A stretch of 22,462 nt of DNA from the IMG/VR virus record IMGVR_UViG_3300021368_002513, positions 1 through 22,462 of that record; one strand, written 5' to 3'. Shown piece after piece: positions 6,001-22,462 of the stretch; position 1 is the first letter of the stretch; every line of letters starts with the position of its first letter. The position numbers and the translations under genes are program-made. The DNA is from a virus. A model generated the notes under the pieces. That model made no database searches and was not told the DNA's origin. It saw only the letters and a program-made list of their open reading frames with translations.

Positions 6001-9000
6001 CTTCAAGACTGGTGAAAAGTTAAAGTATACTCCTGAAAGTACTTTTGTTGGTGTTGCAGCTACTGCAATGACAACTGCCCATAATACAAATCTACCAACA
6101 GACGTATTTGCAATTCGTTTGACGAAGGATACCTTCAAGTTGGCAACTTCAGCATCAAATGCTAACGCAGGAACTGCTGTGACGTTTGCATCACTTGGAG
6201 CAGGTAACGCCCATAAGTTGGAAATGGATAAGAAACTCGAAAAGAGTGTTGTCGTTCTTGATGGTTTAATTCAATCTCCTTTAGCATTTACACCTCTTAC
6301 TCTCACAGTTTCTAATAATGTTGGTGGACAAATATCTTCTACAGCATCAGTATTCAGTGTTTCTGGTATTTCTTCTATTCAACCCACAGACGTTCTGAAG
6401 ATTGGAGATGAATTCTTACATGTAACTAATGTTGGTTTGGGGACGACTTCTGTAGGACCTATTTCTGGATCGGGTTCAATTAATCTGATTCAAACAAAGA
6501 GAGCATTTGTTGGAACTTCTGCAACATCTTATGCTGACGGAACTACAATTAGAAAGTTTGCTGGTTCATTTAACATTGTTGGAAGTAAAATTCACTTCAC
6601 AGACGCACCTAGAGGTACAAATAATACAACTAAGAATATTTCAAATAGAGATTTCCCAAGATCCGATTTTAGTGGAAGAGTTTATCTCCGCAACGATTAT
6701 TCTGATAACAGAATATTTGATGATATTTCAGATCAATTTACTGGAATCGGAACAAACTTTAATGTAAGTGTTGCTGGTGTTAACACCACTGGAATTGATA
6801 CTGGAAGTTCAATTGTTCTTATTAATGGTATTTTCCAAAAACCAACCACTGCTAATAATGCTGACAATAATTATGAATTTGCAGAAAGTGGTGGTGCAAC
6901 AGATATTGTCTTTACTGGAATTACATCCACTGACGGAACTAAGATTGTTAGCACAACAGATGCAAACTTAAATCAACTCCCAAGAGGTGGTATGACAGTT
7001 TCCTTCGGTTCTACCGGAGGTTTAGGTATTGCACCTTTGGTTGGTGCTGCAATTACAGCAACACTTAATGGTTCTGGTGCAATTACAGGCATAACCACTG
7101 CAATTCCTACGGGATCCTTTGGTTCTGGTTATAGAGGTTCTGTTTCAATCGGAATTACTGATTCTGCTCATACCGGAACTGCCGCTAATGTCACTGCCAC
7201 TGTCGGTGCCGGTGGAACATTATCCTTTAATGTTGTTGCTGGTGGATCTGGTTATGTAAATCCAATATTTGAAATACCCGAACCATCTTATACAAATCTT
7301 GAGGTTGTTGGTGTTTCTAGACTTGGTATTGGTGCAACTACAGATACTGGTAATGGACTTCTCGTCAGTGTTGATGTTGGTGCAAGTTCCACAACTGGAA
7401 TTGGTTCCACATTATTTACAGTAACCTCATTCAAGATTGATAGACCTGGATTTGGTTTTAAAGTTGGTGATGTTATTAAACCCGTTGGTCTTGTAACTGA
7501 TAGAAGTGTTCCAAATCTGGTTGATGATTTTGAATTAACAATCACTGATGTATTTACTGATAAGTTTGCTTCTTGGGATTTTGGTGAGTTTGATTACATC
7601 GATCCAATCACCAACCTTCAAAATGGCACTAGAACTAGATTCCCATTGAGATTAAATGGAAATCTGCTGAGTTTTGAAATTGATAGAAACAATGCAGATT
7701 CATCTTTAATTGATATGCAATCATTACTCCTTATCTTTATCAATGGAGTAATTCAAGTTCCTGGTGAGGCATATACATTTGATGGTGGCGCAACATTTGC
7801 CTTTACCACTGCACCAGATCCTGAAGATGAGGTTTCCATCTTCTTCTATAAAGGAACAACTGGAACAGATAGTGTGGTTGTTGATGTAACACCATCTGTA
7901 AAATCTGGAGATGATGTTCGATTGATGAATAATAGCAGAGTATCCTCAACTCTGGCACAGGAGAAGAGAGTAATTGCTGGTATTACTACTTCTGACACTT
8001 TTGAAACTGATATCTACACTCTTCAGGGAATTGATGATATAAACTTCAGACCTTTAAATTGGACTAAGCAGAAGATTGATAAAAAAATTGCTGGTGAGAT
8101 TGTATCTAAATCTAGAGATTCTATTGAATCTCTTGTTTTCCCAACTGCCAGAATTATTGCTGATGTTTCAACGACTGATAATGAAATATTTGTTGATGAT
8201 GCATCATTCTTCAATTATGAGGAAGATAACTCTAGTGTTGTAATCAACAGTGTTGGTGCTCTTATTATAGATAGAACAGAACCTACAAGCGCAACGTTTA
8301 CTGCTGTAGTTTCTGCTGCTGGAACGGTTTCTTCCGTTACTGTTAATTCTGGTGGAACCGGGTATGTTGGATCAACAACTTCCCTTTCTATCAGTCAACC
8401 CACTGCTTATACTGGGGTTGGATTGACTGTTGGTGTAGGAACCACTGCAAGAGCATTAGCCACTGCAACCATTTCTAATGGGTCAATCACATCCGTGACA
8501 GTTACACAACCTGGATTTGGTTATACAACAACTAACGTTCCTCTTGTTATTGCACCTTTCCCCGAACCAATTGAAGAGTCCTTAACAAATATAAACGGTG
8601 TTCAAGGATTCTCTGGAATTGTCACTGGTATTACAACCACAACAATTGGTGTAAGCACGCTTGGAATGAGAATTGGACTTGAAAAAGCAAGTGGAAACTT
8701 TAACGATCTTGTTGTTGGTCATCCAATTTACGTTTATGATACAACTATCGGCACAGGTGTTACTTCACTCAACTTAAGTGGAAATGACAATGATGCTGTT
8801 GGAATCGGGTCTACATTTATTGATAATGTCTATATGATTAAGTCCATCACAAGAAATGGGCATAAAGCAGAAATCGTTGCAAACATTCACTCCGCGACAA
8901 CTAATATTGGAATCGGAACAACCGGAAATAATATTGGTAAGTTCTCTTGGGGTAGATTGTTTAATTCCGGAGGATTGACCAGAAATAACCCAATTTCGAT

Positions 9001-9142: not shown

Positions 9143-10687
9143 ATGGCTGCCATTGTAACAGATCAATTTAGAATTCTTAACGCGACTAATTTTGTTGACA
9201 CGATTAGTGATTCGACGAATTCTTATTATGTTTCTTTAAGTCTGCCTAATCCGACCAATGTTGGATTTGGTAGAACTTCTAATTGGGATACAAACACTCC
9301 CAATCCAGTTGATAATGTCAACAACATTAATCACATCGGTGATACTACAATTTTTGGTAAGCGTGTAACTGGCGTTAATGTTAGAAGATTGATTAGGAGA
9401 GTCAACTGGACTCAAGGTACACGATATGAAATGTATCGTCATGATTATAGCATCAATTCCCCTTCTCCAGTGACACAATCTTCCAGATTGTATGACTCAA
9501 ATTACTATGTAATGAATAGTAATTTCAATGTATACATTTGCATTGATAATGCATCTTCTGGAATTAACACAACTGGAAATGCATCTCAGGATGAACCAAC
9601 TTTTACCGACTTGGAACCATCTAAGGCAGGAGAAAGTGGTGATGGATACATCTGGAAATATCTGTTTACGGTATCACCCAGTGATATCATCAAATTTGAC
9701 TCCACTGACTATATTGCTGTTCCAAATGATTGGGCAACAACAACCGATGCCTTGATTCAATCGGTTAGAGAGAATGGTGATTCTGAAGTTAATAATAACC
9801 AAATTAAAAAAGTATACATTGACCAACAAGGTGCCGGATATGCTGGCGGTTTAGGTCAAGAATTTAGCATACTTGGTGATGGAAGTGGAGGAAAAGTTGT
9901 TGTTGATGTTGTAAGTGGAAAAATCACGAATGCTGTTGTATCTTCCGGTGGAAAAGGATACACATACGGCATTGTTGATTTGGGATCCATCAATCAAAAC
10001 ATTTCTACTCCAGCAAAACTGATTCCAATCATTCCTCCCGCAAAAGGTCATGGAAATGATCTTTATTCCGAGTTGGGAACTGATAGGGTACTAGTTTACG
10101 CTAGATTTGATGATTCTACAAAAGATTTTCCAATTGATACAAAATTTGCACAGATTGACTTAGTTAAGAATCCAACTTCTATTGGATCTACATCAATATT
10201 CTTGGGTAGTCAATATTCTTCATTGAATTCATTCAAATTCTCTTCTACTACAGGAACACCTGCCATTGGTGAGAAAATATCACAAACGACAGGAAGTGGT
10301 GTAGCAGTTGGATATGTCGCATCATTTGATTCTGAAACAAAAGTGATGAAGTATTTCCAAGATAGATCACTTTACTTCAATCAAACAACTGCAGACCAAA
10401 CAGATTATATTGGAATTTCTACATCCGGCAGAGTCTTGGCATTTGAATCATCTGCAAGTCAGGTTTCCGCACCTAGTGGATTTACTGGATCAATTGATAC
10501 AAACTTCAGTGCTGGGATTACAACTGTAAATAACAAGAGTATTAGTCTCGGTGTTGAGTTTACAAACGGACTTGCCACTCCTGAGATAAATAAAGGGTCA
10601 GGCGAAGTTATCTATGTAGACAATAGAGCTACTATAACTAGGAACTCTAGACAAAAAGAAGACGTTAAAATTATCCTGGAATTCTAA
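9143..10687 (+). CDS. gp8: Baseplate wedge subunit gp8, enlarged
   Basis: This is a homologue of T4 gp8, which as a dimer joins the outer baseplate wedge and contacts gp7, gp10 and gp6. Matches to remembered T4 gp8: N-terminal A-I-V-T-D-Q-F-R (residues 3-10); R-R-V-N-W and T-R-Y (85-94); G-D-G-Y-I-W-K-Y-L-F (166-175); Y-I-A-V-P (190-194); and the C-terminal G-E-V-I-Y-V-D-N-R-A through I-L-E-F (487-514). At 514 residues it is about 180 longer than T4 gp8 (334). The extra length sits in the second half: a GY module at about 221-283 and a GE-x-I-x-Q module with a following Thr/Ser-rich stretch at about 371-475. The ATG is the first in frame after the late promoter and is 36 nt past the previous stop. 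The next gene starts 3 nt after this one's TAA, implying coupling. Confidence 0.9.
   Translation: MAAIVTDQFRILNATNFVDTISDSTNSYYVSLSLPNPTNVGFGRTSNWDTNTPNPVDNVNNINHIGDTTIFGKRVTGVNVRRLIRRVNWTQGTRYEMYRHDYSINSPSPVTQSSRLYDSNYYVMNSNFNVYICIDNASSGINTTGNASQDEPTFTDLEPSKAGESGDGYIWKYLFTVSPSDIIKFDSTDYIAVPNDWATTTDALIQSVRENGDSEVNNNQIKKVYIDQQGAGYAGGLGQEFSILGDGSGGKVVVDVVSGKITNAVVSSGGKGYTYGIVDLGSINQNISTPAKLIPIIPPAKGHGNDLYSELGTDRVLVYARFDDSTKDFPIDTKFAQIDLVKNPTSIGSTSIFLGSQYSSLNSFKFSSTTGTPAIGEKISQTTGSGVAVGYVASFDSETKVMKYFQDRSLYFNQTTADQTDYIGISTSGRVLAFESSASQVSAPSGFTGSIDTNFSAGITTVNNKSISLGVEFTNGLATPEINKGSGEVIYVDNRATITRNSRQKEDVKIILEF
9803..9991 (+). repeat. GY beta module inserted in gp8
   Basis: Residues about 221-283 of gp8 carry I-D-Q-Q-G-A-G-Y, then a G-D-G-S-G-G-K-V-V-V-D-V-V-S-G-K-I stretch, then V-S-S-G-G-K-G-Y. 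This is the same strand-turn pattern seen in the giant protein. In the alignment by eye with T4 gp8 it falls between the conserved Y-I-A-V-P region and the conserved Q-I-D-L-V-K-N-P (T4 Q-I-S-I-I-T-N-P), where T4 has no counterpart. It is therefore best read as a domain insertion into a loop. Confidence 0.65.
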
Positions 10688-10690
10688 AAA

Positions 10691-13600
10691 ATGCCTCAGA
10701 AGACTAATCTAAATATCAATCCTTATTATGATGATTTTGATAAGGAGAATAATTACTACAGGGTATTATTCCAACCCGGTAGACCTGTTCAGGCTAGAGA
10801 ACTAACGACTCTTCAATCGATTCTACAAGATCAGATAGAATCTTTCGGTAGTCATATGTTCAAAGAGGGATCAATGGTGATTCCTGGAAACTTTGCATAT
10901 GATTTTGAGTATTATTCAATTAAACTGGATTCTGTTCATTTGGGTGTTCCAGTAACACTTTATATTGATAATTTGAAGGGGAAGATATTAAGAGGACAAA
11001 ACAGCGGTGTAAAGTTAAGAGTAGATAATTACGCATTACCTTCGAGTTCATCTGACATTACGGATGTAACTCTGTTTGTTAAATATATTGATTCTGGAGA
11101 TAATAAAGAAATTTCATTCTTAGATGATGGTGAAAACCTTATTACTGAAGAATCTTTTGTATATGGAAATACTCCAATAAATGCTGGAGACACTGTTGTT
11201 AATTTGATTGATAGTGAAGCATCACACATTGGTTCTTCATTGTCCATCAATAATGGTGTATTTTTCATCAGAGGTTCTTTCGTTAACGTTAGTTCCGATA
11301 GAATTGTATTAGACCCATATTCTAATCAACCTTCTTATAGAGTTGGTTTAGATGTCAATGAGCAGATTGTAACTGCAAATGATGATGATTCTTTGTATGA
11401 TAATGCAAGAGGATTTTCTAACTATGCTGCTCCTGGTGCTGATAGATTAAAAATTTCTACATTACTTACTAAAAAACCACTTAGTGATTACAACGATAAG
11501 AACTTCATTGAGTTAATTAGATTTGATAATGGTGAAGTTAGGAAGATTCAAAATAAGACTCAATATTCTTTAATTAAGAATTATTTTGCAAAGAGAACCT
11601 ATGAGGAATCTGGAAACTATTCCATAGGTAATTTTAAGATTGAGGCAGCAAATTCTCTCAATGATGGTCTATCAAACGAAGGTCTTTTCTTATCGACAGA
11701 AGTTACGGATATTGGAAACACTCCTTCTGACGACTTGATGTGCCTTAAGGTTTCTCCTGGTAAGGCATATGTTAGGGGTTATGATGTAGAAGCAGCAAAT
11801 ACAACTATTATAGATGTTGCAAAACCCAGAGATAAAGAAAGCATTGATTCTGCATTAGTACCATTTACTCTTGGCAGTCTCGTAAAAGTTAATAGGGTAT
11901 TTGGTACTCCCAAAATTGACATCAACACATCAACTAACATTGTTAGCCTTAGGCGAAATAGAAGAGATGCTTCTACAACTAATGCTGGCAGTGGTACAGA
12001 AGTTGGTAGAGCTAGAGCATATTCTTTCCAAGTAACAGATGCATCGTATTCTGGAGATGAAACTGAATGGGATTTGTACCTGTATGATATTCAAACTCAT
12101 ACCCAACTTTTAATTAATAGTGCAGTATCAAACACAGAACTTCCTACAACATGTTTCGTTGAAGGTTTAAGTAGTGGTGCTACTGGTTTTGCAGTTTCTT
12201 CTGGTGGAAATAGCACAACAATTACTTTAAGCGATACTTCCGGAACATTTATTGCTGGTGAAGAACTTAGATTTGGTACAGGAGTTACTAGATCAGTTAG
12301 AACAGTAACAGCGTTCTCCCTTGATGATGTCAAGTCCGTCTATCAAGATGCATCTGCATTAGGTCTTCAAACCGACTTTACTGCTGACGTTGTTCTAAAA
12401 TCGACAGTAATTAAAGAATTAGGCATCGGAGATCAAGTTAATGTTAGTGGATCTAGTGTATTAACTTGTGCAGGCAAAACATTTGGATCATTAAAAATTG
12501 GCGATATAATTATTGTTAATTTAGCGACAGATGCAGCACCAAGATTTAATCGCATATCTGCCATTTCTACAGATTTAAAGTCAATAACATTGGGAGCAGT
12601 TCCAAGCGTAACTGGTGTTTGTGTTGGTACTGCATTAAATAATCATCAATCAACCGGATTTCATGTTGCAAGACCTGCAATTATTAATAATGAAGAGTCT
12701 GGTCTTTATGCAAGCATAGATCAAGAAAATATTTCTGATGTTTCTCTTGCTAATGCCGATCTGAGCATCAAGTCTCAGATGACATCATTATCCACTAACG
12801 CTGTTGGTACTATGACCGTACAGGTTGTGGATGTTGTCGGAGTTACTACGGCGTTCTTTGAACCTTTTGATGCAGAAAGATATTCTGTTCACTATTCTGA
12901 TGGATCGATTGAAGATTTAACATCAGACCAGTTTACACTGTCTAATAATTCTACTACAGCAACTATCACTGGACTTACAGCGTCTCAATCTAACGTTGTT
13001 CTGAACGTTACTGCTAGAAAGAATTCAGTACAAAGCAAAGCAAAAGAATATTTAAGAAGTCAAAAAATTCAAATTGATAAGTGTGTTTCTGCAGCATCTA
13101 CTGTAAATGGTCTCACTCAAAACAATCACTTTGGATTAAGAGTTGATGATGCTGTAATTTCATTGAACACTGCAGAAGTTGCAAATATCGTCGGTGTCTT
13201 TGAATCCGTAACCACATCTGCTCCTGTTTTGGATAGATTAACTTTTGTTAGTGGATTGAGTCTTGATACCAATTCTATTCTTGGAGAAAAGATTGTTGCA
13301 TCTGGTAGTGGTGCTATCGCTCAAATTACCGATAGAGTATCTGCAACGGTTGTTGAAATTGCATATCTTACTCAAGATAGATTTATTATTGGAGAGTCTG
13401 TAACTTTTGAAGAATCAAATATTACAACTAACCTTCAAAATATTACGGAAGGTAGTTACTTAAATATTACGACCAACTATAAACTCAATAGAGGTGAAAA
13501 GGAACAATACTCTGATTATTCTAGGATTGAAAGAGTTGATCTGGATCAAGTACCTTCTAGAAGACTTACTGTAGTATTTGATAAGTTTGCAGTTCCTGCA

Positions 13601-16600
13601 GGAGATTCTGGAGACATCTTTACCGTAGAATCTTATGATGAAGAAAGATTTGGAAAAGATGTTCCCCTTTTGAGAGGTGGAACTTTAAGAACAACTGATA
13701 CCTTAGACTTTAGACCTGTAGTATCTGATTTTACAGCAACAAATACCTCACCGTTTGCTTTTGCATCTAGAGATTTTAGTTCTACTTTAAATCCAGCACT
13801 GATTGTTGCTCCTGAAGAAAGTTCTGAAATTGGTTATAGTTTCTATCTTCCTAGAATCGATACGTTAGTATTGGAAACTATGAAGTTAGATGAGTTTAAT
13901 ACTACGGTTCCCATATTTAAACTGAACAAAGGTATTTCTTCGCTGACACCAGAGGCACCCGAAAATCCAGAAAGTGGTATGCTTTTAGCAACCATTTCTC
14001 TTCCTCCTTATCTGTACGATCCTAGTGATGCAGAGATCGTAGCAGTTGATAATAGAAGATTTACCATGAGAGACATTGGTAAATTGGAAGATAGAATTGA
14101 AAATCTTGAGACATTAACGTCACTTTCTTTACTTGAACTTGATACAAAAACTTTCCAAGTTCAAGATGCCGATGGTCTTTCCAGATTTAAGTCTGGATTC
14201 TTTGTTGACGACTTTAAGAATGTTAGTTTCTTAGATATTAGTAATCCCGAATGTAGATGTGATATTGACAGCACAAATCAAACATTGATTGCGGCATCGG
14301 ATATCTATTCGATGAAGCCTGAGTTAGCATTAGAACCTTCAATTAACACAGATACTGCAGACTTTAGTGCTGATTTGCAACTGTTAGATTCAAACATCAG
14401 AAAAACTGGTGATCTTATAACCCTAAACTACACCGAAAAAGAATTCTTAAACCAACCTCTTGCATCTAGAGTATCAAACGTTAATCCATTCAATATTATC
14501 GTATTCAATGGTAGAGTACAATTGAATCCAAACTCTGATAACTGGACACGTAATGTTGTTCTTCCTGGAAGAGAAAGAACTGTTTTTGGTGATAGAGAAG
14601 ACACATTTACTACAGAAGTTAGAGTAAGTAGTGAACCTGATACACACATTCGTTCTAGAAACGTAGGTTTTGATGCTAGTGGCATGAAACCTAATACAAG
14701 ATTCTATCCTTTCTTTGACAGTGTTAGTGGTATTGATATTGTACCTAAGTTATTGGAAATCTCTATGACATCTGGAGTTTTCACAATTGCAGAAACTGTT
14801 GATGCATTTGATGGAAGTGATAGATTAATGTCTGCAAGAATATGTCAACCCAATCATAAAGGTGGAAATATCTCCACTCCAACTTCAACGTTTGGTGCAA
14901 ATCCATATGACACCAATGTAAATCTTGCAACTACATATTCCGCATCTTCTACAGTCCTTAATATTGATATCAATTCTCTTGTAGAAGAGGCTCAAGGAAG
15001 ATTCTCTGGTTATGTAAGAAATGGAATTACCCTTGTTGGTCGTACAAGTGGAGCAGTTGCTACGGTAGCAAATATTAGATTGGTTACTGATTCTGTAGGT
15101 GATGTATTTGGATCATTCTTCTTCAGAGATCCTCTGGCGTCTCCACCACCACCACTCAGATTTAGAAATGGAACAAGAACTTTTAGATTGACTAATAGCC
15201 CCACAAATGCTATACCTGTAACCGGAGACTCTGGTAGTAGTTCAACAGAGAACACTTATACTACTAGTGGAGTTATTGACACTGTTCGTCAATCTACGGT
15301 CGTGGTTAGAAGACCACCCCCACCACCACGACCTATTATTAATTTCATTACTAATATTACACAAAATATTACTAATGTCACCAATGTGATTAGACCCCCT
15401 GCTCCTGTTAGAAGAGGTGATCCTCTTGCACAATCATTTACAGTTGAGGGAACTGGAGTATTCGTATCTTCCGTTGATCTGTTCTTTAAAGATAAAGATC
15501 CTAAAGAGAAACTGACCGTAGAATTGAGAACTATGGAGTTGGGAACTCCTACTGATCTCCTTATTCAAGATTTTGCTACTGTCACTTTAGATCCATCTGA
15601 AGTAAATATCTCTGAAGATGCATCTGCACCAACTAGAGTTACATTCCCATCACCAATATATCTTGAGCCAGAGAATGAATATGCTCTCTGCTTATTGTCA
15701 ACAGCTTCAAATAGGTATGAAGCATGGGTAGGAAGAATGGGAGAAAAAACCATTACTACTCAGACACTTCCAGATTCTGAGAGTGTTCTTATATCTCAAC
15801 AGTATCTTGGTGGTAGTTTATTCAAGTCTCAGAACGGAACTATTTGGACACCAAGTCAGTTTGAGGATTTGAAATTCACACTGTATAGATGTGATTTCGC
15901 AGAAAATACTTCTGGAGATTTGTTCTTCTATAATCCTGAATTAAATTATGAAAGTAGCCAAGTTCAAACTCTCTTGCCTAACGCGGTAAGATCTCTTCCA
16001 AGAAAACTGAAAGTTGGTATCACAACCGTTACCAATGCTAATTTGATTACTCAACTTGCTAAAGGTATTAAAGTAAGTGAGGGAACTCAACCCGGTCCCT
16101 TTGGATTCATTGAGAACACCGGAGGAAATGCTGCTTCAATCACTCTTGCAAACGCTGGTATTGGATATTCCAACGGAACATTCACGGGTGTACCTCTTTA
16201 CAATATTACAGGAAACGGATCTGGTGCTACTGCTTCTGTCACGGTTTCTGGTGGTGTTGTTTCTTCAGTTTCTGTCGCATCAACCGGAAACGGTTATATT
16301 AAAGGAGATCTTCTTGGAATCACAACTTCGAACGTTGTTAAAGGTGCAGGTGCAGAACTTACTGTTAACACCGTCTTTGGTCGTGATACCTTGTATCTCA
16401 CCAACGTTCAAGGTGAACAGTTCACAGATGGTCAAGATTTAGTTATCTTCAACGGAAATACTTCAACAGGACTTGCTAATACGGACATTAGAGGAAATTC
16501 TACCGTAATTAATGATCTGTTTACTGGTAACGTTCTTGAAGTTGAACAATATAATCATGGAATGCAGGCAGACACTAACATTGTTGAACTGTCTAATATT

Positions 16601-17863
16601 AGACCCACTACGGAACCCATTCAGTTAACGGCAGAACTTGGAATGACAGATTCCACAATCTCTGTTGCTAACACGACACCATTTGCAACGTTTGAAGGTA
16701 TTACAACTTCAACTGGATACGTTCAAATCAACAATGAAGTTATCTTCTACGATAGTATTGGATCTGGTACTCTGGGTATTGGTGAAAGAGGTGTTGATAG
16801 TTCCTTAACTAGACCTCATGCAGACGGTAGTCTTGCTTACAAGTATGAGTTCAATGGTATATCTCTCACCGGAATTAATACACATCACACAATGCCTAAT
16901 ACGGCACTTCTGAGTGATACTAAGGATATTGACAAGTATTACTTAGAAATTAATCGTGGTGCAAGAGCAAATCTACAAAATCGTGCTACTGGAGACAATC
17001 AAGTAAGTTTCACTGATAATAGAACAGGTGGTGGGGACGAAATCTTCGCCTCTCAAAATATTCAGTTTAACGAAGTTAATCCTAGATTTAACTACATTAC
17101 TCCTGGAAATACTTCCATTAGTTCCAGAATAAGAACAGTTTCTGCTACAAGTGCTGGAGGATCTGAGGTTTCATTCCTTGATCAAAACTTTGAGGATATT
17201 GAACTCAATAGATTCAATAAATTGAATTCTACAAGAATGGTTGCCTCTCCTAGAAATGAAGATGCTTATCTAACCGATCTTCCTAAGAATAAATCCTTCA
17301 CATTAGCAGTTAGATTTGAAACTGAAGATCCTAAATTGTCTCCTGTTTTGGACACAATGAATGGAACTATATTCTATCGCAGAAATAGAATTAACAAACC
17401 CATTGACAATTATGCGTTAGAACCTGGTGCAAATCTTAATACTGGTGATCCTCATGCATCGACATACATCACCAGAAGAGTTGATCTTCAGCAACCTGCA
17501 ACTTCACTAAAAGTTCTTATTGCGTCAGATAGACATGCATCATCCGACTTTAGAGTTCTCTACAAGTTGTTCAGACCAGACTCGACTGATGTTGAACAAA
17601 CTTATGAATTCTTCCCTGGATATGACAATCTTGCGGATACTGATGGAGATGGATTTGGAGATGAAATTATTTCATCTAGATTAAATAGTGGTAGAGCAGA
17701 TGCCTTTGTGGCAGACAGCAAAAATGGAGAATTCAAAGATTATCAATTCACAATTGATAATTTACCTGAGTTTACTGGATTTGCTATCAAGATTGTATCT
17801 AGTGGTACAAACGAAGCATACGCTCCACAATTCAAAGATCTCAGAGTTATTGCATTAGCATGA
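10691..17863 (+). CDS. Large virion structural protein with DUF4815-type N-terminus
   Basis: This 2,390-residue protein belongs to the large T4-like cyanophage virion proteins. The N-terminus (N-I-N-P-Y-Y-D-D-F, then F-Q-P-G-R-P-V-Q-A-R-E-L) is the DUF4815 signature. Further recognisable segments are a short coiled coil near residues 1131-1150 (L-E-D-R-I-E-N-L-E) followed by D-G-L-S-R-F-K-S-G-F; proline clusters near 1484 and 1542; a D-P-L-A-Q-S-F-T-V domain from about 1577 ending near Q-Y-L-G-G-S-L-F-K-S-Q-N; a GY module near 1811-1920; an R-G-V-D module with H-A-D-G near 2040; and a C-terminal beta domain containing a calcium-type loop at 2316-2325. By position, after gp8 and before the neck genes, it replaces T4 genes 9-12; a tail-fibre or baseplate-periphery role is inferred. 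No strong Shine-Dalgarno sequence is seen; the 3-nt gap suggests coupling to gp8. Its TGA overlaps the next ATG (ATGA). Confidence 0.85.
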   Translation: MPQKTNLNINPYYDDFDKENNYYRVLFQPGRPVQARELTTLQSILQDQIESFGSHMFKEGSMVIPGNFAYDFEYYSIKLDSVHLGVPVTLYIDNLKGKILRGQNSGVKLRVDNYALPSSSSDITDVTLFVKYIDSGDNKEISFLDDGENLITEESFVYGNTPINAGDTVVNLIDSEASHIGSSLSINNGVFFIRGSFVNVSSDRIVLDPYSNQPSYRVGLDVNEQIVTANDDDSLYDNARGFSNYAAPGADRLKISTLLTKKPLSDYNDKNFIELIRFDNGEVRKIQNKTQYSLIKNYFAKRTYEESGNYSIGNFKIEAANSLNDGLSNEGLFLSTEVTDIGNTPSDDLMCLKVSPGKAYVRGYDVEAANTTIIDVAKPRDKESIDSALVPFTLGSLVKVNRVFGTPKIDINTSTNIVSLRRNRRDASTTNAGSGTEVGRARAYSFQVTDASYSGDETEWDLYLYDIQTHTQLLINSAVSNTELPTTCFVEGLSSGATGFAVSSGGNSTTITLSDTSGTFIAGEELRFGTGVTRSVRTVTAFSLDDVKSVYQDASALGLQTDFTADVVLKSTVIKELGIGDQVNVSGSSVLTCAGKTFGSLKIGDIIIVNLATDAAPRFNRISAISTDLKSITLGAVPSVTGVCVGTALNNHQSTGFHVARPAIINNEESGLYASIDQENISDVSLANADLSIKSQMTSLSTNAVGTMTVQVVDVVGVTTAFFEPFDAERYSVHYSDGSIEDLTSDQFTLSNNSTTATITGLTASQSNVVLNVTARKNSVQSKAKEYLRSQKIQIDKCVSAASTVNGLTQNNHFGLRVDDAVISLNTAEVANIVGVFESVTTSAPVLDRLTFVSGLSLDTNSILGEKIVASGSGAIAQITDRVSATVVEIAYLTQDRFIIGESVTFEESNITTNLQNITEGSYLNITTNYKLNRGEKEQYSDYSRIERVDLDQVPSRRLTVVFDKFAVPAGDSGDIFTVESYDEERFGKDVPLLRGGTLRTTDTLDFRPVVSDFTATNTSPFAFASRDFSSTLNPALIVAPEESSEIGYSFYLPRIDTLVLETMKLDEFNTTVPIFKLNKGISSLTPEAPENPESGMLLATISLPPYLYDPSDAEIVAVDNRRFTMRDIGKLEDRIENLETLTSLSLLELDTKTFQVQDADGLSRFKSGFFVDDFKNVSFLDISNPECRCDIDSTNQTLIAASDIYSMKPELALEPSINTDTADFSADLQLLDSNIRKTGDLITLNYTEKEFLNQPLASRVSNVNPFNIIVFNGRVQLNPNSDNWTRNVVLPGRERTVFGDREDTFTTEVRVSSEPDTHIRSRNVGFDASGMKPNTRFYPFFDSVSGIDIVPKLLEISMTSGVFTIAETVDAFDGSDRLMSARICQPNHKGGNISTPTSTFGANPYDTNVNLATTYSASSTVLNIDINSLVEEAQGRFSGYVRNGITLVGRTSGAVATVANIRLVTDSVGDVFGSFFFRDPLASPPPPLRFRNGTRTFRLTNSPTNAIPVTGDSGSSSTENTYTTSGVIDTVRQSTVVVRRPPPPPRPIINFITNITQNITNVTNVIRPPAPVRRGDPLAQSFTVEGTGVFVSSVDLFFKDKDPKEKLTVELRTMELGTPTDLLIQDFATVTLDPSEVNISEDASAPTRVTFPSPIYLEPENEYALCLLSTASNRYEAWVGRMGEKTITTQTLPDSESVLISQQYLGGSLFKSQNGTIWTPSQFEDLKFTLYRCDFAENTSGDLFFYNPELNYESSQVQTLLPNAVRSLPRKLKVGITTVTNANLITQLAKGIKVSEGTQPGPFGFIENTGGNAASITLANAGIGYSNGTFTGVPLYNITGNGSGATASVTVSGGVVSSVSVASTGNGYIKGDLLGITTSNVVKGAGAELTVNTVFGRDTLYLTNVQGEQFTDGQDLVIFNGNTSTGLANTDIRGNSTVINDLFTGNVLEVEQYNHGMQADTNIVELSNIRPTTEPIQLTAELGMTDSTISVANTTPFATFEGITTSTGYVQINNEVIFYDSIGSGTLGIGERGVDSSLTRPHADGSLAYKYEFNGISLTGINTHHTMPNTALLSDTKDIDKYYLEINRGARANLQNRATGDNQVSFTDNRTGGGDEIFASQNIQFNEVNPRFNYITPGNTSISSRIRTVSATSAGGSEVSFLDQNFEDIELNRFNKLNSTRMVASPRNEDAYLTDLPKNKSFTLAVRFETEDPKLSPVLDTMNGTIFYRRNRINKPIDNYALEPGANLNTGDPHASTYITRRVDLQQPATSLKVLIASDRHASSDFRVLYKLFRPDSTDVEQTYEFFPGYDNLADTDGDGFGDEIISSRLNSGRADAFVADSKNGEFKDYQFTIDNLPEFTGFAIKIVSSGTNEAYAPQFKDLRVIALA
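15302..15416 (+). other. Proline-rich hinge and I-T-N repeat in the DUF4815 protein
   Basis: A run of five prolines (R-R-P-P-P-P-P-R-P) is followed at 15332-15391 by I-I-N-F-I-T-N-I-T-Q-N-I-T-N-V-T-N-V-I and then R-P-P-A-P-V-R-R-G. Isoleucine or valine recurs every three or four residues with Thr and Asn between. A second cluster, S-P-P-P-P-L, lies at 15139-15156. The layout suggests a stiff or swivelling linker with a short self-associating segment between two folded domains. The following D-P-L-A-Q-S-F domain begins at about 15420. Confidence 0.6.
16123..16450 (+). repeat. GY beta modules in the DUF4815 protein
   Basis: Two GY units lie in tandem. The first contains L-A-N-A-G-I-G-Y followed by N-G-S-G-A-T-A-S-V-T-V-S-G-G-V-V-S-S-V-S-V. 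The second contains S-T-G-N-G-Y followed by G-A-G-A-E-L-T-V. This is the clearest copy of the module outside the giant protein. The flanking F-G-R-D-T-L-Y-L-T-N-V-Q-G-E stretch begins a new domain. Confidence 0.7.
17636..17665 (+). other. Calcium-binding type loop near the C-terminus of the DUF4815 protein
   Basis: The codons read D-T-D-G-D-G-F-G-D-E (residues 2316-2325). This matches the D-x-D-x-D-G-x-x-D-E spacing of EF-hand or thrombospondin-3-type calcium loops. It lies in a conserved C-terminal beta domain, with no paired second loop visible. Calcium binding is inferred from the motif only. Confidence 0.55.
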
Positions 17864-18066
17864 TACCAGTTGAAGGACATAAAAATCTTTATAGAGATGA
17901 AAATACGGGCGCTATTGTCAATTGCGATACAGCGTCCTATCATCAGTATATTAGAATGAGATCTAAGAAGAAAACTCAAAAAGAAGAGTTAGATCAGATC
18001 AAATCTGATATTGATGAAATTAAGTCACTACTTAAGGAGATTATCAATGGACCCAAACCAAATTGA
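17860..18066 (+). CDS. Small conserved T4-like phage protein with C-terminal coiled coil (68 aa)
   Basis: I recognise the N-terminus (M-I-P-V-E-G-H-K-N-L-Y-R-D, then T-G-A-I-V-N) as a small protein found widely in marine T4-like phages; no function is known to me. Residues 1-30 form a compact conserved head. Residues about 34-62 are a charged, heptad-like helix (K-K-K-T-Q-K-E-E-L, then I-K-S-D-I-D-E-I-K-S-L-L-K-E-I), so it probably oligomerises. The start ATG overlaps the TGA of the DUF4815 gene as ATGA, so it is likely translated by reinitiation. Its 3' end overlaps the next gene by 20 nt and contains that gene's Shine-Dalgarno sequence. Its place between baseplate and fibre genes suggests a virion or assembly role. 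Confidence 0.75.
   Translation: MIPVEGHKNLYRDENTGAIVNCDTASYHQYIRMRSKKKTQKEELDQIKSDIDEIKSLLKEIINGPKPN
18034..18040 (+). promoter_or_regulatory. Shine-Dalgarno sequence that sets the start at 18047
   Basis: AAGGAGA lies 6 nt before the ATG at 18047, inside the end of the 68-aa gene. It is the strongest ribosome binding site in this stretch and favours the ATG at 18047 over the in-frame TTG at 18011. Confidence 0.75.
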
Positions 18067-18229
18067 ACTTACTAATCTTAGTAAGAGTTTTGAATATCAC
18101 AAACTAGCGTCTCAAATTGACGAGTGTGATGATAGAGAAATATTGAAAAATATTGCGAAATCTTTCTGCAAGTTATACTACAAGCAACAAGAAACGATGT
18201 CCGTCATCGGTATTCCTAACGCTGCCTGA
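18047..18229 (+). CDS. Small helical protein (60 aa), unknown function
   Basis: The start is set by the AAGGAGA at 18034-18040; the reading frame stays open farther upstream, to a TTG at 18011, but that has no ribosome binding site. The 60-residue product is predicted by eye to be nearly all helix, with S-K-S-F-E-Y-H-K-L-A-S-Q-I at about 12-24, then D-D-R-E-I-L-K-N-I-A-K, then L-Y-Y-K-Q-Q-E-T-M. Its size and a helix-turn-helix pattern with S-F-E, Q-I and R-E-x-L loosely resemble NblA, the cyanobacterial phycobilisome-degradation adaptor. The resemblance is weak and a late virion-operon position is not expected for NblA. It may equally be a conserved small cyanophage protein of unknown role. 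It overlaps the upstream gene by 20 nt and is the last gene before the second late promoter. Confidence 0.7.
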   Translation: MDPNQIELTNLSKSFEYHKLASQIDECDDREILKNIAKSFCKLYYKQQETMSVIGIPNAA

Positions 18230-18251
18230 TTGATTGTTCGATTTTATATAG

Positions 18252-18259
18252 TATAAATA
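18252..18259 (+). promoter_or_regulatory. T4-type late promoter box (TATAAATA) before the fibre and neck genes
   Basis: An exact TATAAATA lies in the 57-nt gap at 18230-18286, the longest non-coding stretch in the window. T4 spacing puts the start of transcription near 18265, with a leader of about 22 nt before the ATG at 18287. No convincing hairpin terminator is seen between 18229 and this box, so read-through from upstream is likely. Confidence 0.75.
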
Positions 18260-18286
18260 CACTTTAGATCTGAAATTATTTTATAA

Positions 18287-18628
18287 ATGGCAGCTGTTTA
18301 TGTTAGCAACCTAGTAATTAACTCTGGTGCTACATTTTCTCAGACCTTTAATTTAGAAAACTCTGCCTCAAGTTCATCATTGAACCTGAGCAATTTCACT
18401 GTTGCTGCTCAAATGAGAAAGCACTCTGGAAGTACGGGGGTTACAACTTTTACATCCACCATCACTGATAATACTGGAGGAACGATAAGAGTCGGTCTGA
18501 CCAGTGCAACAACTGCTTCGTTAAAACCTGGTCGTTATGTATACGACGTTATTGTATCCGATTCTTCTGGAGAAGTAACGAGAGTAGTTGAAGGATCAGT
18601 TTTAGTTAGAGAAGGAGTGACACGCTGA
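18287..18628 (+). CDS. Small beta-sandwich virion protein (113 aa)
   Basis: No enzyme motifs are present. The chain alternates short hydrophobic strands and polar turns, with T-F-S-Q-T-F-N-L near the start, F-T-V-A-A-Q-M-R-K in the middle, then I-R-V-G-L-T, L-K-P-G-R-Y-V-Y-D-V-I-V-S-D and V-V-E-G-S-V-L-V. This pattern (a strand, a Q-M-R-K strand, L-x-P-G-x-Y-x-Y-D, E-G-x-V-x-V) is common in small phage tail and baseplate beta-sandwich proteins, including the N-terminal domain of BppU-like baseplate proteins. It is the first gene after the second late promoter, and its TGA shares one base with the next ATG (TGATG). A structural role on the tail periphery is inferred from fold pattern and neighbours. 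Confidence 0.75.
   Translation: MAAVYVSNLVINSGATFSQTFNLENSASSSSLNLSNFTVAAQMRKHSGSTGVTTFTSTITDNTGGTIRVGLTSATTASLKPGRYVYDVIVSDSSGEVTRVVEGSVLVREGVTR
18611..18617 (+). promoter_or_regulatory. Shine-Dalgarno sequence for the 75-aa gene
   Basis: GAAGGAG lies inside the 3' end of the 113-aa gene, with 10 nt before the ATG at 18628. It supports that start and coupled translation across the TGATG junction. Confidence 0.7.
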
Positions 18629-18855
18629 TGGCGGATATCAAAGTAAAAGTAGGACAACAAAATGCTATAAAAGTAGTTTCCTCTTTGGCAGGAAACATTA
18701 GTGGTTCCTTAGCGGGACTCAGTGATATTGATGCTTCAAATCCTCAAAATGGACAAGTCTTAGTCTACAACTCTACCACCGGAAAGTGGACGGGAACTTT
18801 AGATCTAACCCCAGGAAATACACAAAATTTGGACATCAACGGAGGTAGCTTTTAA
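18628..18855 (+). CDS. Small virion-associated protein (75 aa), fibre-related
   Basis: The 75-residue product begins M-A-D-I-K-V-K-V-G, and its middle reads L-S-D-I-D, then G-Q-V-L-V-Y-N-S-T-T-G-K-W-T. The latter is a stretch common in phage tail-fibre proteins of T4-like and other tailed phages. It ends N-L-D-I-N-G-G-S-F, close to the D-G-G-T-F end of the next protein. The codons for the two glycines form the GGAGG ribosome binding site of that next gene. Start and stop are tightly packed: ATG shared with the previous TGA, TAA shared with the next ATG. It is probably a small partner or attachment piece of the adjacent 576-residue fibre-like protein. The function is inferred and no family is named. 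Confidence 0.7.
   Translation: MADIKVKVGQQNAIKVVSSLAGNISGSLAGLSDIDASNPQNGQVLVYNSTTGKWTGTLDLTPGNTQNLDINGGSF
18841..18845 (+). promoter_or_regulatory. Shine-Dalgarno sequence embedded in the Gly-Gly codons of the 75-aa gene
   Basis: GGAGG at 18841-18845 lies 9 nt before the ATG at 18855. It is read as Gly-Gly in the last five residues of the 75-aa protein. Confidence 0.7.
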
Positions 18856-20585
18856 TGGCTAGTATTATACGAGTAAAAAGATCGACGGGGGTAGCTGCTC
18901 CTTCGACTCTAAATTTCGGTGAAGTTGGACTTACTATCGGTGTAGGTACTCACGGCAATTCTGGTGGAAGATTGTTCGCGGGTGACAATGCATCGAATCC
19001 CCAAGTAATCGGTGGTAGGTACTTCACGGATCTCTTAAGCATTGCTCCTGGTTTAGTTGCAGGTCAGTCAAACCCAACTACAGCGGCAAACGGATTTGTT
19101 CCCATCGTTGACGCGAATGAGAAAGTCGATAGATGGAACGTAGATAATTTAAGATTAGATGGAAATACATTTTCCTCTACGAATACGGATGGAGATATTA
19201 ACATCGATCCTAATGGGACCGGTGAAATTGTCATTCCTGATGATACATTCCTTACCTTTGGTACTAGTAAGGATGCAAAGTTTGAATATGATGAAAATGG
19301 AACAGATCAGTTAAACTATACTGGTGCTGATTTTAGAATTAATGTAGCAACTCAATCTAATAGCAAAGACACTGGTGCTCTTATTGTAGAAGGTGGCGTT
19401 GGTATTGAGAAGAATCTCAATGTCGGTGGTGCATTTGATGTAACTGGCATTTCATCATTTTCAAGTCAGGTAAACATTACCGGTGGACTTGCCATTACCG
19501 GTGGAATTGAAGTTGATAATATTGGCATTTCATCCAATATTATTGCAACAAGACAAGGCGGTGGAAACACCTTATACATTGACCCATATCCCGATGGTCT
19601 TAGCAACGAAGGTTTAGTTGTTGTTAAAGGTGACCTTCAAGTTGATGGTACTACAACTACCGTAAACTCTACGGCAGTAACCGTCAATGATGCCATTATG
19701 CGTGTTGGTGATACAACCAGCACAAGAACCGTAATGGTGACAGTTGGTTCAGGAACATCAACAGTTGTTCTTGATTCTATTGTCGGTATTAACACTGGTG
19801 ACGTTGTAGCTGGCACAAACATTGGTGCCGGAACATCTGTTCATTCATATGTTACACCTGCAGGTGGAGTTGGTCTTGGCACAATCTTCTTGGATGCCAA
19901 TACAAGTGGTTCAATTGGCACCACAACTCAACTGACAATCACCCACGCTTATGACACCAATACCGACAGAGGTATTGCATTTGATTATAATACTTCGCTC
20001 GGAACCACAAATAAGAAAACTGGTTTCTTTGGTTTCGATGATAATTCCATTGCAAGCAGTACAGCAGGTGCTCTAAATCATGGCACTCATGCCAACGATA
20101 CTAGAAGATGGACTTATGTTCCTGATGCAACTATCAATAATGAAGTTGTAAGTGGAACTAAAGGTTTCTTAGATGTTAAAGGTATCTATTATCAGTCTGG
20201 TGATTTCAGCACCAATGGTATTGTTTACTTTGACAATCAAGGTCTGCAGAGATCTACAATTGATCCTGCTAATGCGAACGGAACAAGAACTTCTACTCAA
20301 GTTTTGACCGCCGTTACTGAAATCGTTCTTACTTTATCAGCAACTCATACATTTGCTGCTGGAGATCAAATCACTCAGCAAAGCAATAGTGCTGCATATG
20401 GTGTTGTTAAAACGAGCACATCTTCTTCAAACAGTGTAACACTTATTGGTGTTCAGGGAACATTTGATACTACAAATGATCTCGTTAAAAACGGGACTAG
20501 TATTTCAATTAACCCTACCGCTAATACGACTACATATACTAACAAGCCTACTTGGACTGATACACTGGATGGAGGAACCTTCTAA
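18855..20585 (+). CDS. Tail-fibre-like virion protein (576 aa)
   Basis: The N-terminus (I-R-V-K-R-S-T, then T-L-N-F-G-E-V-G-L, then R-L-F-A-G-D-N and I-G-G-R-Y) follows the pattern seen at the start of phage tropism-determinant and fibre proteins. Residues about 185-235 alternate V/I with G in the style of a beta-helical shaft (N-L-N-V-G-G-A-F-D-V-T-G, then I-T-G-G-L-A-I-T-G-G). From about 257, V-K-G-D-L-Q-V-D-G-T-T-T-T-V-N-S-T, then D-R-G-I-A-F (about 371) and G-F-F-G-F-D-D-N (about 390), are motifs I recognise from cyanophage structural proteins. A G-D-Q-I-T-Q module near 505 is shared with gp8 and the DUF4815 protein. The C-terminus is T-L-D-G-G-T-F. It is probably a trimeric fibre or spike on the tail. 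No autochaperone domain or receptor-binding head is recognisable. Confidence 0.8.
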   Translation: MASIIRVKRSTGVAAPSTLNFGEVGLTIGVGTHGNSGGRLFAGDNASNPQVIGGRYFTDLLSIAPGLVAGQSNPTTAANGFVPIVDANEKVDRWNVDNLRLDGNTFSSTNTDGDINIDPNGTGEIVIPDDTFLTFGTSKDAKFEYDENGTDQLNYTGADFRINVATQSNSKDTGALIVEGGVGIEKNLNVGGAFDVTGISSFSSQVNITGGLAITGGIEVDNIGISSNIIATRQGGGNTLYIDPYPDGLSNEGLVVVKGDLQVDGTTTTVNSTAVTVNDAIMRVGDTTSTRTVMVTVGSGTSTVVLDSIVGINTGDVVAGTNIGAGTSVHSYVTPAGGVGLGTIFLDANTSGSIGTTTQLTITHAYDTNTDRGIAFDYNTSLGTTNKKTGFFGFDDNSIASSTAGALNHGTHANDTRRWTYVPDATINNEVVSGTKGFLDVKGIYYQSGDFSTNGIVYFDNQGLQRSTIDPANANGTRTSTQVLTAVTEIVLTLSATHTFAAGDQITQQSNSAAYGVVKTSTSSSNSVTLIGVQGTFDTTNDLVKNGTSISINPTANTTTYTNKPTWTDTLDGGTF

Positions 20586-20590
20586 AGATC

Positions 20591-20809
20591 ATGAGCAACC
20601 CTAATAATGATGTTGATGTGAATGTATTGATTAAACTTTATAATCAAAAACTGGCAACATTAGCAAATCAGAATGTATTGTTAGAGGCAAAGTTACAAAC
20701 AATCATGCAGGATCACTTGGATGAAATGAGTAACATAGTTGCCGAAAAAAATGAAATTGAAGATAAGTATGAAAATCTAATGGCGGAAATAGAAGAGGAA
20801 GACAACTAA
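20591..20809 (+). CDS. Small acidic coiled-coil protein (72 aa)
   Basis: After a short N-terminus (M-S-N-P-N-N-D-V-D-V), residues 11-70 form one long charged helix with heptad-like leucines, isoleucines and valines (L-I-K-L-Y-N-Q-K-L, then N-V-L-L-E-A-K-L, ending E-I-E-E-E-D-N). This is typical of a short parallel coiled coil. The function is unknown to me. Its place directly before the neck genes suggests a virion assembly or scaffold-like role. A GGAGGA at 20571-20576, in the Gly-Gly codons of the preceding gene, is the only ribosome binding site candidate, though 14 nt is a long spacing. Its own tail holds a GAGGAAG at 20795-20801 that serves gp13. Confidence 0.75.
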   Translation: MSNPNNDVDVNVLIKLYNQKLATLANQNVLLEAKLQTIMQDHLDEMSNIVAEKNEIEDKYENLMAEIEEEDN

Positions 20810-20810
20810 A

Positions 20811-21656
20811 ATGGCAAAACCGTCCACCAAACAACAACTAATCGACTACGCATTGCGAAAACTTGGTGCTCCTGTATTGGAGGTAAACCTTGATGACGAT
20901 CAGATTGATGATTTGGTGGATGACACCATTCAACTCTTCAATGAGCGTGCATATGATGGAATTGAAAGAATGTATCTCAAATATGAGATAACTCAAGATG
21001 ATATTGATAGGGGTAAAGCAACCGGAACAAGTGGCGTAGGTATCGTAACCACAACTGGAACATCTACAGCAATTAGTGGGTATGGAACTACCTCTACTAA
21101 TTTCTATGAGAATAGTAACTTCTTACAGATTCCTGAACCAGTAATCGGTGTAAACAAAATTTTTAAGTTTGATACTAGTTCCATCTCTGGTGGAATGTTC
21201 AGTATCAAATATCAACTATTCTTGAACGATTTATATTATTTCAATTCTGTTGAGTTATTGCAGTTCGCAATGACTAAGACTTATCTTGAGGATATTGATT
21301 TCTTATTGACTCCAGATAAACAAATTAGATTTAATAAGAACCAGAATAGACTATATTTGGATATTGAGTGGGAATCTCAAACAGCAGGAGATTTCTTAAT
21401 CATTGATTGTTTTAGGGCACTGGATCCTGAAACATTCAGCGATATTTACAATGATAGATTTGTGAAGAGATACCTTGTTGCTCTTATGAAGAGACAGTGG
21501 GGTCAGAATCTGATCAAGTTCAGAGGAGTAAAACTTCCTGGAGGATTAGAACTTAACGGAAGAGAAATTTACGAAGACGGAGAAAGAGAGTTACAAGAAA
21601 TTAAATCCAAGATGGCACTGGAGTATGAAACTCCTCCTCTTGATTTTATAGGTTGA
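20811..21656 (+). CDS. gp13: Neck protein gp13
   Basis: This is a homologue of T4 gp13, which with gp14 forms the neck that seals the DNA-filled head and joins it to the tail. Recognisable conserved parts are the N-terminal helix region (L-R-K-L-G-A-P-V, then D-D-D-Q-I-D-D, residues about 15-34), Y-D-G-I-E-R-M-Y, I-P-E-P-V-I-G-V (107-114), and the C-terminal M-K-R-Q-W-G-Q-N-L-I-K-F-R-G-V (226-240) with L-P-G-G. Its 281 residues compare with 309 in T4. Residues about 69-103 are a Gly/Thr/Ser-rich stretch between D-I-D-R-G and the conserved I-P-E-P, probably a flexible surface loop. A GAGGAAG ribosome binding site sits 9 nt upstream, within the preceding gene. gp14 starts 6 nt after its stop. 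Confidence 0.9.
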   Translation: MAKPSTKQQLIDYALRKLGAPVLEVNLDDDQIDDLVDDTIQLFNERAYDGIERMYLKYEITQDDIDRGKATGTSGVGIVTTTGTSTAISGYGTTSTNFYENSNFLQIPEPVIGVNKIFKFDTSSISGGMFSIKYQLFLNDLYYFNSVELLQFAMTKTYLEDIDFLLTPDKQIRFNKNQNRLYLDIEWESQTAGDFLIIDCFRALDPETFSDIYNDRFVKRYLVALMKRQWGQNLIKFRGVKLPGGLELNGREIYEDGERELQEIKSKMALEYETPPLDFIG

Positions 21657-21662
21657 TGAGAT

Positions 21663-22462
21663 ATGGCATTAAATCCGTTTTTTCTACAAGGTTCACAGGG
21701 CGAGCAGAGACTAGTTCAGGACCTAATTAACGAGCACCTTAGAATCTATGGTGTTGAAGTAACTTATATTCCCAGAAAGTTTGTCGCAAGAGAAACGATC
21801 ATGGAGGAAGTAACATCCTCCAAGTTTGATGACAACTTTTTGATTGAGGCATATGTAAATACGTATGAAGGGTATTCTGGATCAGGAGATATTCTTACAA
21901 AATTTGGAATGAGTCTGAGAGATGAAGTAACTCTCACATTATCAAAAGAAAGATTTGAAGACTTCATTGCACCATTCTTGGATGCAATGCCAGAATCTGA
22001 AGTAGAGGTTTCTACCAGACCAAGAGAAGGAGACTTAATTTATTTTCCTTTAGGTCAAAGACTCTTTGAGGTTAAGTTTGTAGAGCATGAGAAACCCTTC
22101 TATCAGTTGGGTAAAAATTATGTTTACGAACTGAAGTGTGAACTCTTTGAATATGAAGACGAAGTTATCGATACCGATATCGACGAAATCGATACTCAGA
22201 TTCAAGATGAAGGGTTTATCACAACTCTCAACCTGGTTGGAACTGGAAGAACTGCAACTGCAACGGCAACCTTATCTCAGCCAACTGGATATATTCGGAA
22301 GATTGTTCTTAACAACGATGGTAGTGGTTATAATACTGCACCCACTGTTGCCATCTCTACAGCACCGACAGGCGGTGTTAATGCCACTGCAGTAGCGATT
22401 ACTACTAGCATTGGTGGTGTTAAGTCTATCAAGGAGATTCTGCTTACTAACGCCGGTTCTGG
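21663..22462 (+). CDS. gp14: Neck protein gp14 (3' partial) with an added GY domain
   Basis: The frame runs from the ATG at 21663 to the right edge without a stop (266 full codons), so the C-terminus is missing. The first 165 or so residues match T4-like gp14: N-P-F-F-L-Q-G-S-Q-G-E-Q near the start, then a V-E-V-T-Y-I-P-R-K strand, F-L-D-A-M-P, and G-D-L-I-Y-F-P-L-G followed by F-E-V-K-F-V-E-H-E and Y-Q-L-G. Together with gp13 it forms the head-closing neck. After an acidic linker (about 163-183, D/E and I rich) the protein enters a GY module (D-G-S-G-Y at about 219-223; G-G-V-K-S-I-K-E-I-L-L-T-N-A-G-S-G at the edge). T4 gp14 is 256 residues, so this one is longer. No strong ribosome binding site is visible; the 6-nt gap after gp13 suggests coupling. 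Confidence 0.9.
   Translation, partial: MALNPFFLQGSQGEQRLVQDLINEHLRIYGVEVTYIPRKFVARETIMEEVTSSKFDDNFLIEAYVNTYEGYSGSGDILTKFGMSLRDEVTLTLSKERFEDFIAPFLDAMPESEVEVSTRPREGDLIYFPLGQRLFEVKFVEHEKPFYQLGKNYVYELKCELFEYEDEVIDTDIDEIDTQIQDEGFITTLNLVGTGRTATATATLSQPTGYIRKIVLNNDGSGYNTAPTVAISTAPTGGVNATAVAITTSIGGVKSIKEILLTNAGS
22209..22462 (+). repeat. GY beta module at the C-terminus of gp14 (cut by the window edge)
   Basis: From about residue 183 the translation changes from the acidic gp14 linker to T-A-T-A-T-A-T-L, D-G-S-G-Y, A-P-T-V-A-I-S-T, A-T-A-V-A-I and a second G-G-V-x-S-I-x-E-I-x-L-x-N-A-G-S-G. These follow the same strand-turn order as the modules in gp8, the DUF4815 protein and the giant protein. At least one and a half units are present before the edge. 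Confidence 0.65.

Follow-up and report, generated by a model that had tools for sequence, protein, structure and literature searches.

The question raised by this locus is whether a glycine-rich beta pattern that recurs along several of its virion proteins is one and the same module and, if so, what it contributes to the particle. The window (the whole stretch of DNA analysed) is a 22.5 kb virus fragment derived from a T4-like phage of cyanobacteria, of the Kyanoviridae type. The genes for the giant wedge-region protein, gp8, the DUF4815/VrlC protein, gp13 and gp14 are arranged in the order found in the genomes used for comparison, those of P-SSM2 (Prochlorococcus) and S-SRM01 (Synechococcus). 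The gp8 core belonged to the T4 gp8 family (Pfam PF09215, E 1e-10; phrog_438) and matched PDB 1n7z by profile (E 1e-11) and by Foldseek (E 9e-8). Likewise, the gp14 core belonged to the T4 gp14 neck family (PF11649, E 1e-32; profile match to PDB 9mkb, E 8e-31). A complete gp14 of 548 aa was found on contig L085 (positions 500-2143), its gp14 segment being 99 % identical to that of the window.

The giant protein is annotated as gp7 (5195 aa) in the P-SSM2 record. Similarity to T4 gp7 was barely detectable, the best phmmer score in the T4 gp7 homology check being 9.9 bits, to P-SSM2 'gp7'; cyanomyophages have been reported to be devoid of gp7 (PMC7029224). A 576-aa protein encoded at 18855-20585 matched phrog_15769 and, more weakly, a family of head structural proteins; it displayed neither GY nor any Pfam match. 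Coordinates of all other features are gathered in Table 1.

Table 1. Genes and modules of the window (positions refer to the window unless contig L085 is indicated).
Feature	Position	Strand	Evidence or remark
Giant protein	2-9106		wedge region
GY domain(s), giant aa 158-260	473..781	+	profile E 6e-10, 8e-10; HHalign to gp8/DUF4815/gp14 modules 93-96
YHYH domain (PF14240), giant, between two GY blocks	869..1165	+	Pfam E 3e-25
GY domain, giant aa 437-519	1310..1558	+	profile E 1.9e-16
GY domains, giant aa 1074-1220	3221..3661	+	profile E 1e-11, 2e-18
GY domains, giant aa 2386-2515	7157..7546	+	profile E 6e-4, 6e-8
GY domains, giant aa 2759-2875	8276..8626	+	profile E 7e-5, 2e-10
gp8, baseplate wedge subunit	9143..10687	+	T4 gp8 core plus two inserts
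GY domain, gp8 aa 189-309 (core motif aa 213-290)	9707..10069	+	profile, HHalign, T4 alignment
GE module, gp8 aa 371-416	10253..10390	+	GE profile E 3e-15; without counterpart in T4 gp8
DUF4815/VrlC-type baseplate protein	10691..17863	+	Pfam PF16075 E 8e-57; phrog_358
Two GE modules, DUF4815 protein	12155-12277, 13271-13420	+	GE profile E 8e-10, 1e-14
GY domain, DUF4815 protein, half-repeats aa 1821 and 1864	16112..16450	+	phrog_438 cross-match E 2e-6
gp14, neck/head closure protein	21663..22462	+	truncated by window edge
First GY repeats, gp14 aa 174 to edge	22182..22462	+	profile E 3e-22; directly after T4-like core
GE module, complete gp14	L085:1619-1783		

The module, called GY here, is a domain of ~85 residues composed of two GxGY half-repeats ~40 residues apart. 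Each half-repeat (40-45 residues) comprises a strand (I-x-x-I-x-V), a G-x-G-Y turn, a short P-x-V strand, a glycine turn and a further strand (A-x-A-x-V). No Pfam or NCBIfam model covering it emerged when GY proteins of the window, of cyanophages and of bacteria were scanned, and the Ig, Big and FN3 sequence families gave no match in the same Pfam scans, nor in NCBIfam. RTX calcium-binding repeats were discarded as a candidate, GGxGxD being absent from all seven proteins of the window and from the complete gp14. The earlier note had placed the module in the giant protein, gp8, the DUF4815 protein and gp14; profile matches were obtained at all of these places, and the early coordinates proved good to ~100 bases. 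In the DUF4815 protein the profile matched aa 1838-1897 (16202-16381), preceded by one further GxGY near 16150. Alignment to T4 gp8 confirmed that the gp8 copy is an insertion relative to T4. The YHYH domain, a predicted metal-dependent hydrolase (PMC7824862), lay between GY blocks in three giants, those of the window, of P-SSM2 and of S-PM2.

Common descent of the copies was examined with ~80 gp8 and ~80 gp14 orthologs and their flanking genes. Profile-profile comparison by HHalign gave a probability above 60 in 18 of 28 module-region pairs (gp8-giant 96, DUF4815-giant 96, gp8-DUF4815 94, DUF4815-gp14 91), as opposed to a median of 0.2 and a maximum of 29 in 144 controls drawn from other segments of the same proteins. 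Independently, the PHROG profiles of gp14, gp8 and the giant cross-matched one another's module regions. When each family was held out in turn, the GY profile recovered 77 of 84 gp14 and 54 of 78 giant orthologs, but only six of 83 for gp8 and two of 106 for DUF4815; membership of the latter two therefore rests on the profile-profile and PHROG cross-matches. No match was encountered in 84 gp13 proteins, 66 orthologs of the 576-aa protein, 543 other ORFs or shuffled sequences.

Poor held-out recovery of the gp8 and DUF4815 copies, together with the low identity of copies within one genome (only ~25-40 %), could be taken to mean that independent glycine-rich beta sequences merely resemble each other by composition. 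This is very improbable, since control segments, shuffles and unrelated ORFs yielded nothing, and since a cyanophage-trained profile found bacterial copies (best E 1e-5 to 1e-11 per protein) which kept the spacing of ~38-45 residues. Profile comparison separated GY from the 144 controls and from shuffles, whereby chance glycine-rich similarity was rejected. As judged by profile comparison, the copies are thus homologous, which bears out the proposal of one module reused on baseplate and neck proteins.

Genomic copy numbers were counted by profile, as a paired-GxGY regular expression missed known gp8 copies. P-SSM2, S-SRM01, S-PM2, Syn9 and Syn19 displayed nine, 10, 15, 18 and 19 matches over the whole genome, respectively, and T4 none. 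GY was more widespread than the four proteins first proposed, being found in at least 15 virion protein families of cyanomyoviruses. Every match for which the gene was read fell in a virion gene (gp7/giant, gp8, gp14, VrlC, the gp5 hub lysozyme, tail fibres). A contractile tail sheath of Pseudovibrio japonicus (NZ_BMXE01000004; L197:3019-3246) carried GY as an insertion at aa 178-253, ahead of Phage_sheath_1, so that reuse on several unrelated virion proteins was confirmed for gp7/giant, gp8, gp14, VrlC, gp5, fibres and sheath. Bacterial copies, found by a genome scan with a single GY copy as query, resided in secreted-looking proteins with multicopper oxidase, FGE-sulfatase, lipocalin or autotransporter-repeat domains; plasmids displayed no GY match. 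In secreted multicopper-oxidase-like proteins (L187, L188 and L195), tandem GY adjoined the oxidase domain.

A second module, GE (consensus GTPIVGEKIVGSSSGATGYVKSWDSDTKVLKVSQVSGTFIQGESITF), was also identified. Its pattern, GEKIVGxxSGAxGYVKSWDSDTKxLKV, is common to gp8, the DUF4815 protein and gp14 and was not mentioned in the earlier note. The GE profile found nothing in T4; by eye, T4 gp7 resembles it around residues 775-825.

Protein gp14 was the most instructive host of GY, as its length varied with module content. It measured 212-256 residues in a Stenotrophomonas phage and T4; 292-308, devoid of GY, in S-PM2, S-RIM44, Syn19 and S-P4; 390, with one GY domain, in Syn9 and S-RIM12; and 463-548, with four half-repeats, in S-SRM01, P-SSM2 and the window type. 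The complete window-type gp14 displayed four GxGY half-repeats, another module and a conserved C-terminal tail. Because this tail comes after GY, the module is no terminal appendage as had been supposed; it lies between the T4-like core and the tail. In S-SSM7 (762 residues), gp14 carried GY plus a Laminin_G_3-like lectin which scored 26.6 bits, just under the Pfam cut-off of 27.6. This lectin (L180, aa 318-443) had GY copies on both sides, making S-SSM7 gp14 a lectin-bearing neck protein.

The gp14 proteins of Syn19/S-P4 and Syn9/S-RIM12 were 67-73 % identical except for one clean block inside GE: in the latter pair GY sat inside GE, which was intact in the former. Such clean natural pairs with and without the module establish GY, on sequence grounds, as an autonomous domain. 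As GE is in one piece in gp8, in the DUF4815 protein and in the remaining gp14 proteins, a gain is the simplest account of the Syn9 state. The P-SSM2/window group carried two GY domains at another site, ahead of GE; GY has therefore likely been inserted into gp14 at least twice.

Almost all copies (972 of 973) were closest to a copy in the same protein family, a proportion favoured by the ortholog sampling, though the score gap was large (median best-match scores of 94-130 bits to orthologs as opposed to ~35 bits across families). Recent copying between genes is hence not supported, and recent gene conversion between proteins, which would concern a single copy of the 973, was rejected. These scores and the gp14 pairs indicate that GY is old in each protein and that separate insertions did occur within cyanophages. 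Of the suggested spread by recombination within the genome, the recent part was consequently abandoned and the separate insertions were retained, the spread itself appearing old. GY is under purifying selection, looser than that of the cores: dN/dS was 0.20 in gp14 GY vs 0.06 in the gp14 core and 0.13 in gp8 GY vs 0.05-0.11 in the gp8 core. Such looseness is as expected for a surface scaffold.

AlphaFold2 models of gp8 and of the full gp14 displayed an identical GY strand order, compared by order and not by superposition. GY strands were predicted at aa 223-278 of gp8 (pLDDT block means ~79-87) and pLDDT amounted to 80-93 across the gp14 array, the T4-like core of gp14 being modelled with poor confidence. 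Foldseek with the whole gp8 and gp14 models retrieved only the T4 cores among solved structures, leaving the GY part unmatched, and returned cyanophage giants and fibres from a viral library. Cyanophage GY copies alone retrieved nothing in a sequence search of solved structures. Once bacterial copies were added, the profile weakly matched (E 0.098) residues 449-506 of Dpo31, the tailspike of marine podovirus Carin-1 (PDB 28lx, 28mg), a stretch containing two GxGY half-repeats. It scored 23.5 bits vs 11.8 for the best of ~2000 self-shuffles, a test that is supportive and not decisive as it was run after the best match had been picked. The match falls inside D3* (Dpo31 residues 434-536), described as an Ig-like domain that is inserted into the beta-helix, protrudes from it and is soluble alone (PMC13317679). 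This match is the best clue to the fold and exposure of GY. D3* is distantly similar to Ig-like sugar-binding domains (DALI Z ~2.9) and lies beside the exopolysaccharide depolymerase site (PMC13317679). Together with the predicted strands, this match suggests that GY is probably Ig-like; it comes from one distant relative, weakly matched by itself, and from models that were not superposed. The clean gp14 pairs, the shared strand order and the protruding inserted domain of Dpo31 all agree with the expectation of an independently folding, exposed domain.

What GY contributes to the particle was weighed against this background. It is fairly probable that GY is a self-folding glycine-rich beta domain, probably Ig-like, serving as an exposed accessory knob or spacer inserted in tail and neck proteins. 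Such a domain would tolerate insertion into surface loops and linkers of these proteins, would be exposed on the particle, as the Dpo31 match and predicted strands suggest, and may push functional domains (YHYH, lectin, fibre parts) outward. Weak contact with envelope polysaccharide would then likely be a bonus. Glycan contact is plausible in view of Dpo31 and the bacterial companion domains, and fits the Ig-like, sugar-binding-like D3* and the S-SSM7 gp14 lectin; its presence in the gp5 hub and the ordinary level of purifying selection are equally compatible with a scaffold role.

GY might instead be mainly an adhesin, a weak polysaccharide binder on tail and neck by which the phage attaches to glycans of the host or the environment before it binds its specific receptor. 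The likeness of D3* to sugar-binding domains beside a depolymerase site, the lectin adjoining GY in S-SSM7 gp14 and the occurrence of GY in secreted bacterial proteins all speak for it. So do S-PM2d chemostats, where gp8, d081, d084 and d088 were among the genes mutated early under host resistance (PMC9910659), the last three carrying GY by profile; however, the proteins of S-PM2 and S-PM2d do not differ in the deposited records and these mutations can consequently not be placed within GY. Moreover, purifying selection on GY was ordinary, the invariant residues of the gp14 array were mostly Gly, Pro and Ala with no conserved polar cluster, and GY is also present in the gp5 hub spike, so that adhesion as the main role appears rather doubtful. 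A broader version, in which GY on hub, wedge, fibres and neck forms a particle-wide, low-affinity polysaccharide-binding coat with neck copy number tuned per lineage, is quite improbable; were it true, cyanomyoviruses would cling to slime or to cell envelopes with the entire tail and as far up as the neck. As T4 gp14 docks on gp15 through residues 178-256 (PMC12270204), GY in gp14, and perhaps in gp8, could also be a buried assembly joint which replaces or enlarges this C-terminal arm docking the head onto gp15 and so stabilises the neck. GY indeed begins directly where the T4 gp14 core ends, near residue 178, the site of the arm, and is followed by the conserved tail. This role is nevertheless unlikely: gp14 copy number varies from none to about five half-repeats, and the four GY-less proteins (S-PM2, S-RIM44, Syn19, S-P4) keep the tail, hence the neck joint works without GY.

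Small beta domains of the Ig-like type (Big, Ig, FN3) are reused on unrelated virion proteins of tailed phages, where they are thought to give weak surface contacts. GY is similarly a small beta domain on unrelated virion proteins; it differs from them by lacking any Ig/Big Pfam match, by its GxGY signature and by its in-frame insertion, no frameshift extension being seen. D3* likewise has two GxGY half-repeats, in a domain of ~100 residues that is inserted in a virion protein, protrudes from it and is soluble alone; unlike phage GY, D3* is a single copy in the trimeric beta-helix tailspike of an unrelated podovirus, and the sequence match is weak. The BACON domains of crAssphage are also beta domains arranged in tandem within a phage protein, and are associated with carbohydrates (PMC6949934); they belong to another sequence family, and no Pfam BACON match was obtained in the proteins scanned. 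T4 gp8 and gp14 have cores homologous to those of the window, without GY or a GE profile match. The shuffling of domains among phage proteins has been surveyed extensively (PMC10684548). In the literature searched, which covered few subscription journals, no description of the GY module was found; its reuse is a new example of a known phage habit and not a new machine.

GY represents an unmodelled domain family which recurs both in the virions of abundant marine phages and among secreted proteins of bacteria, and it accounts for much of the extra length of cyanophage gp8 and gp14 relative to T4. Natural gp14 pairs with and without the module make it possible to test directly for a part in adsorption or in the stability of the neck. 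Recognition of GY and GE would improve the annotation of giant structural proteins; those encoded upstream of gp8 in Syn9 and Syn19 exceed 6000 aa.
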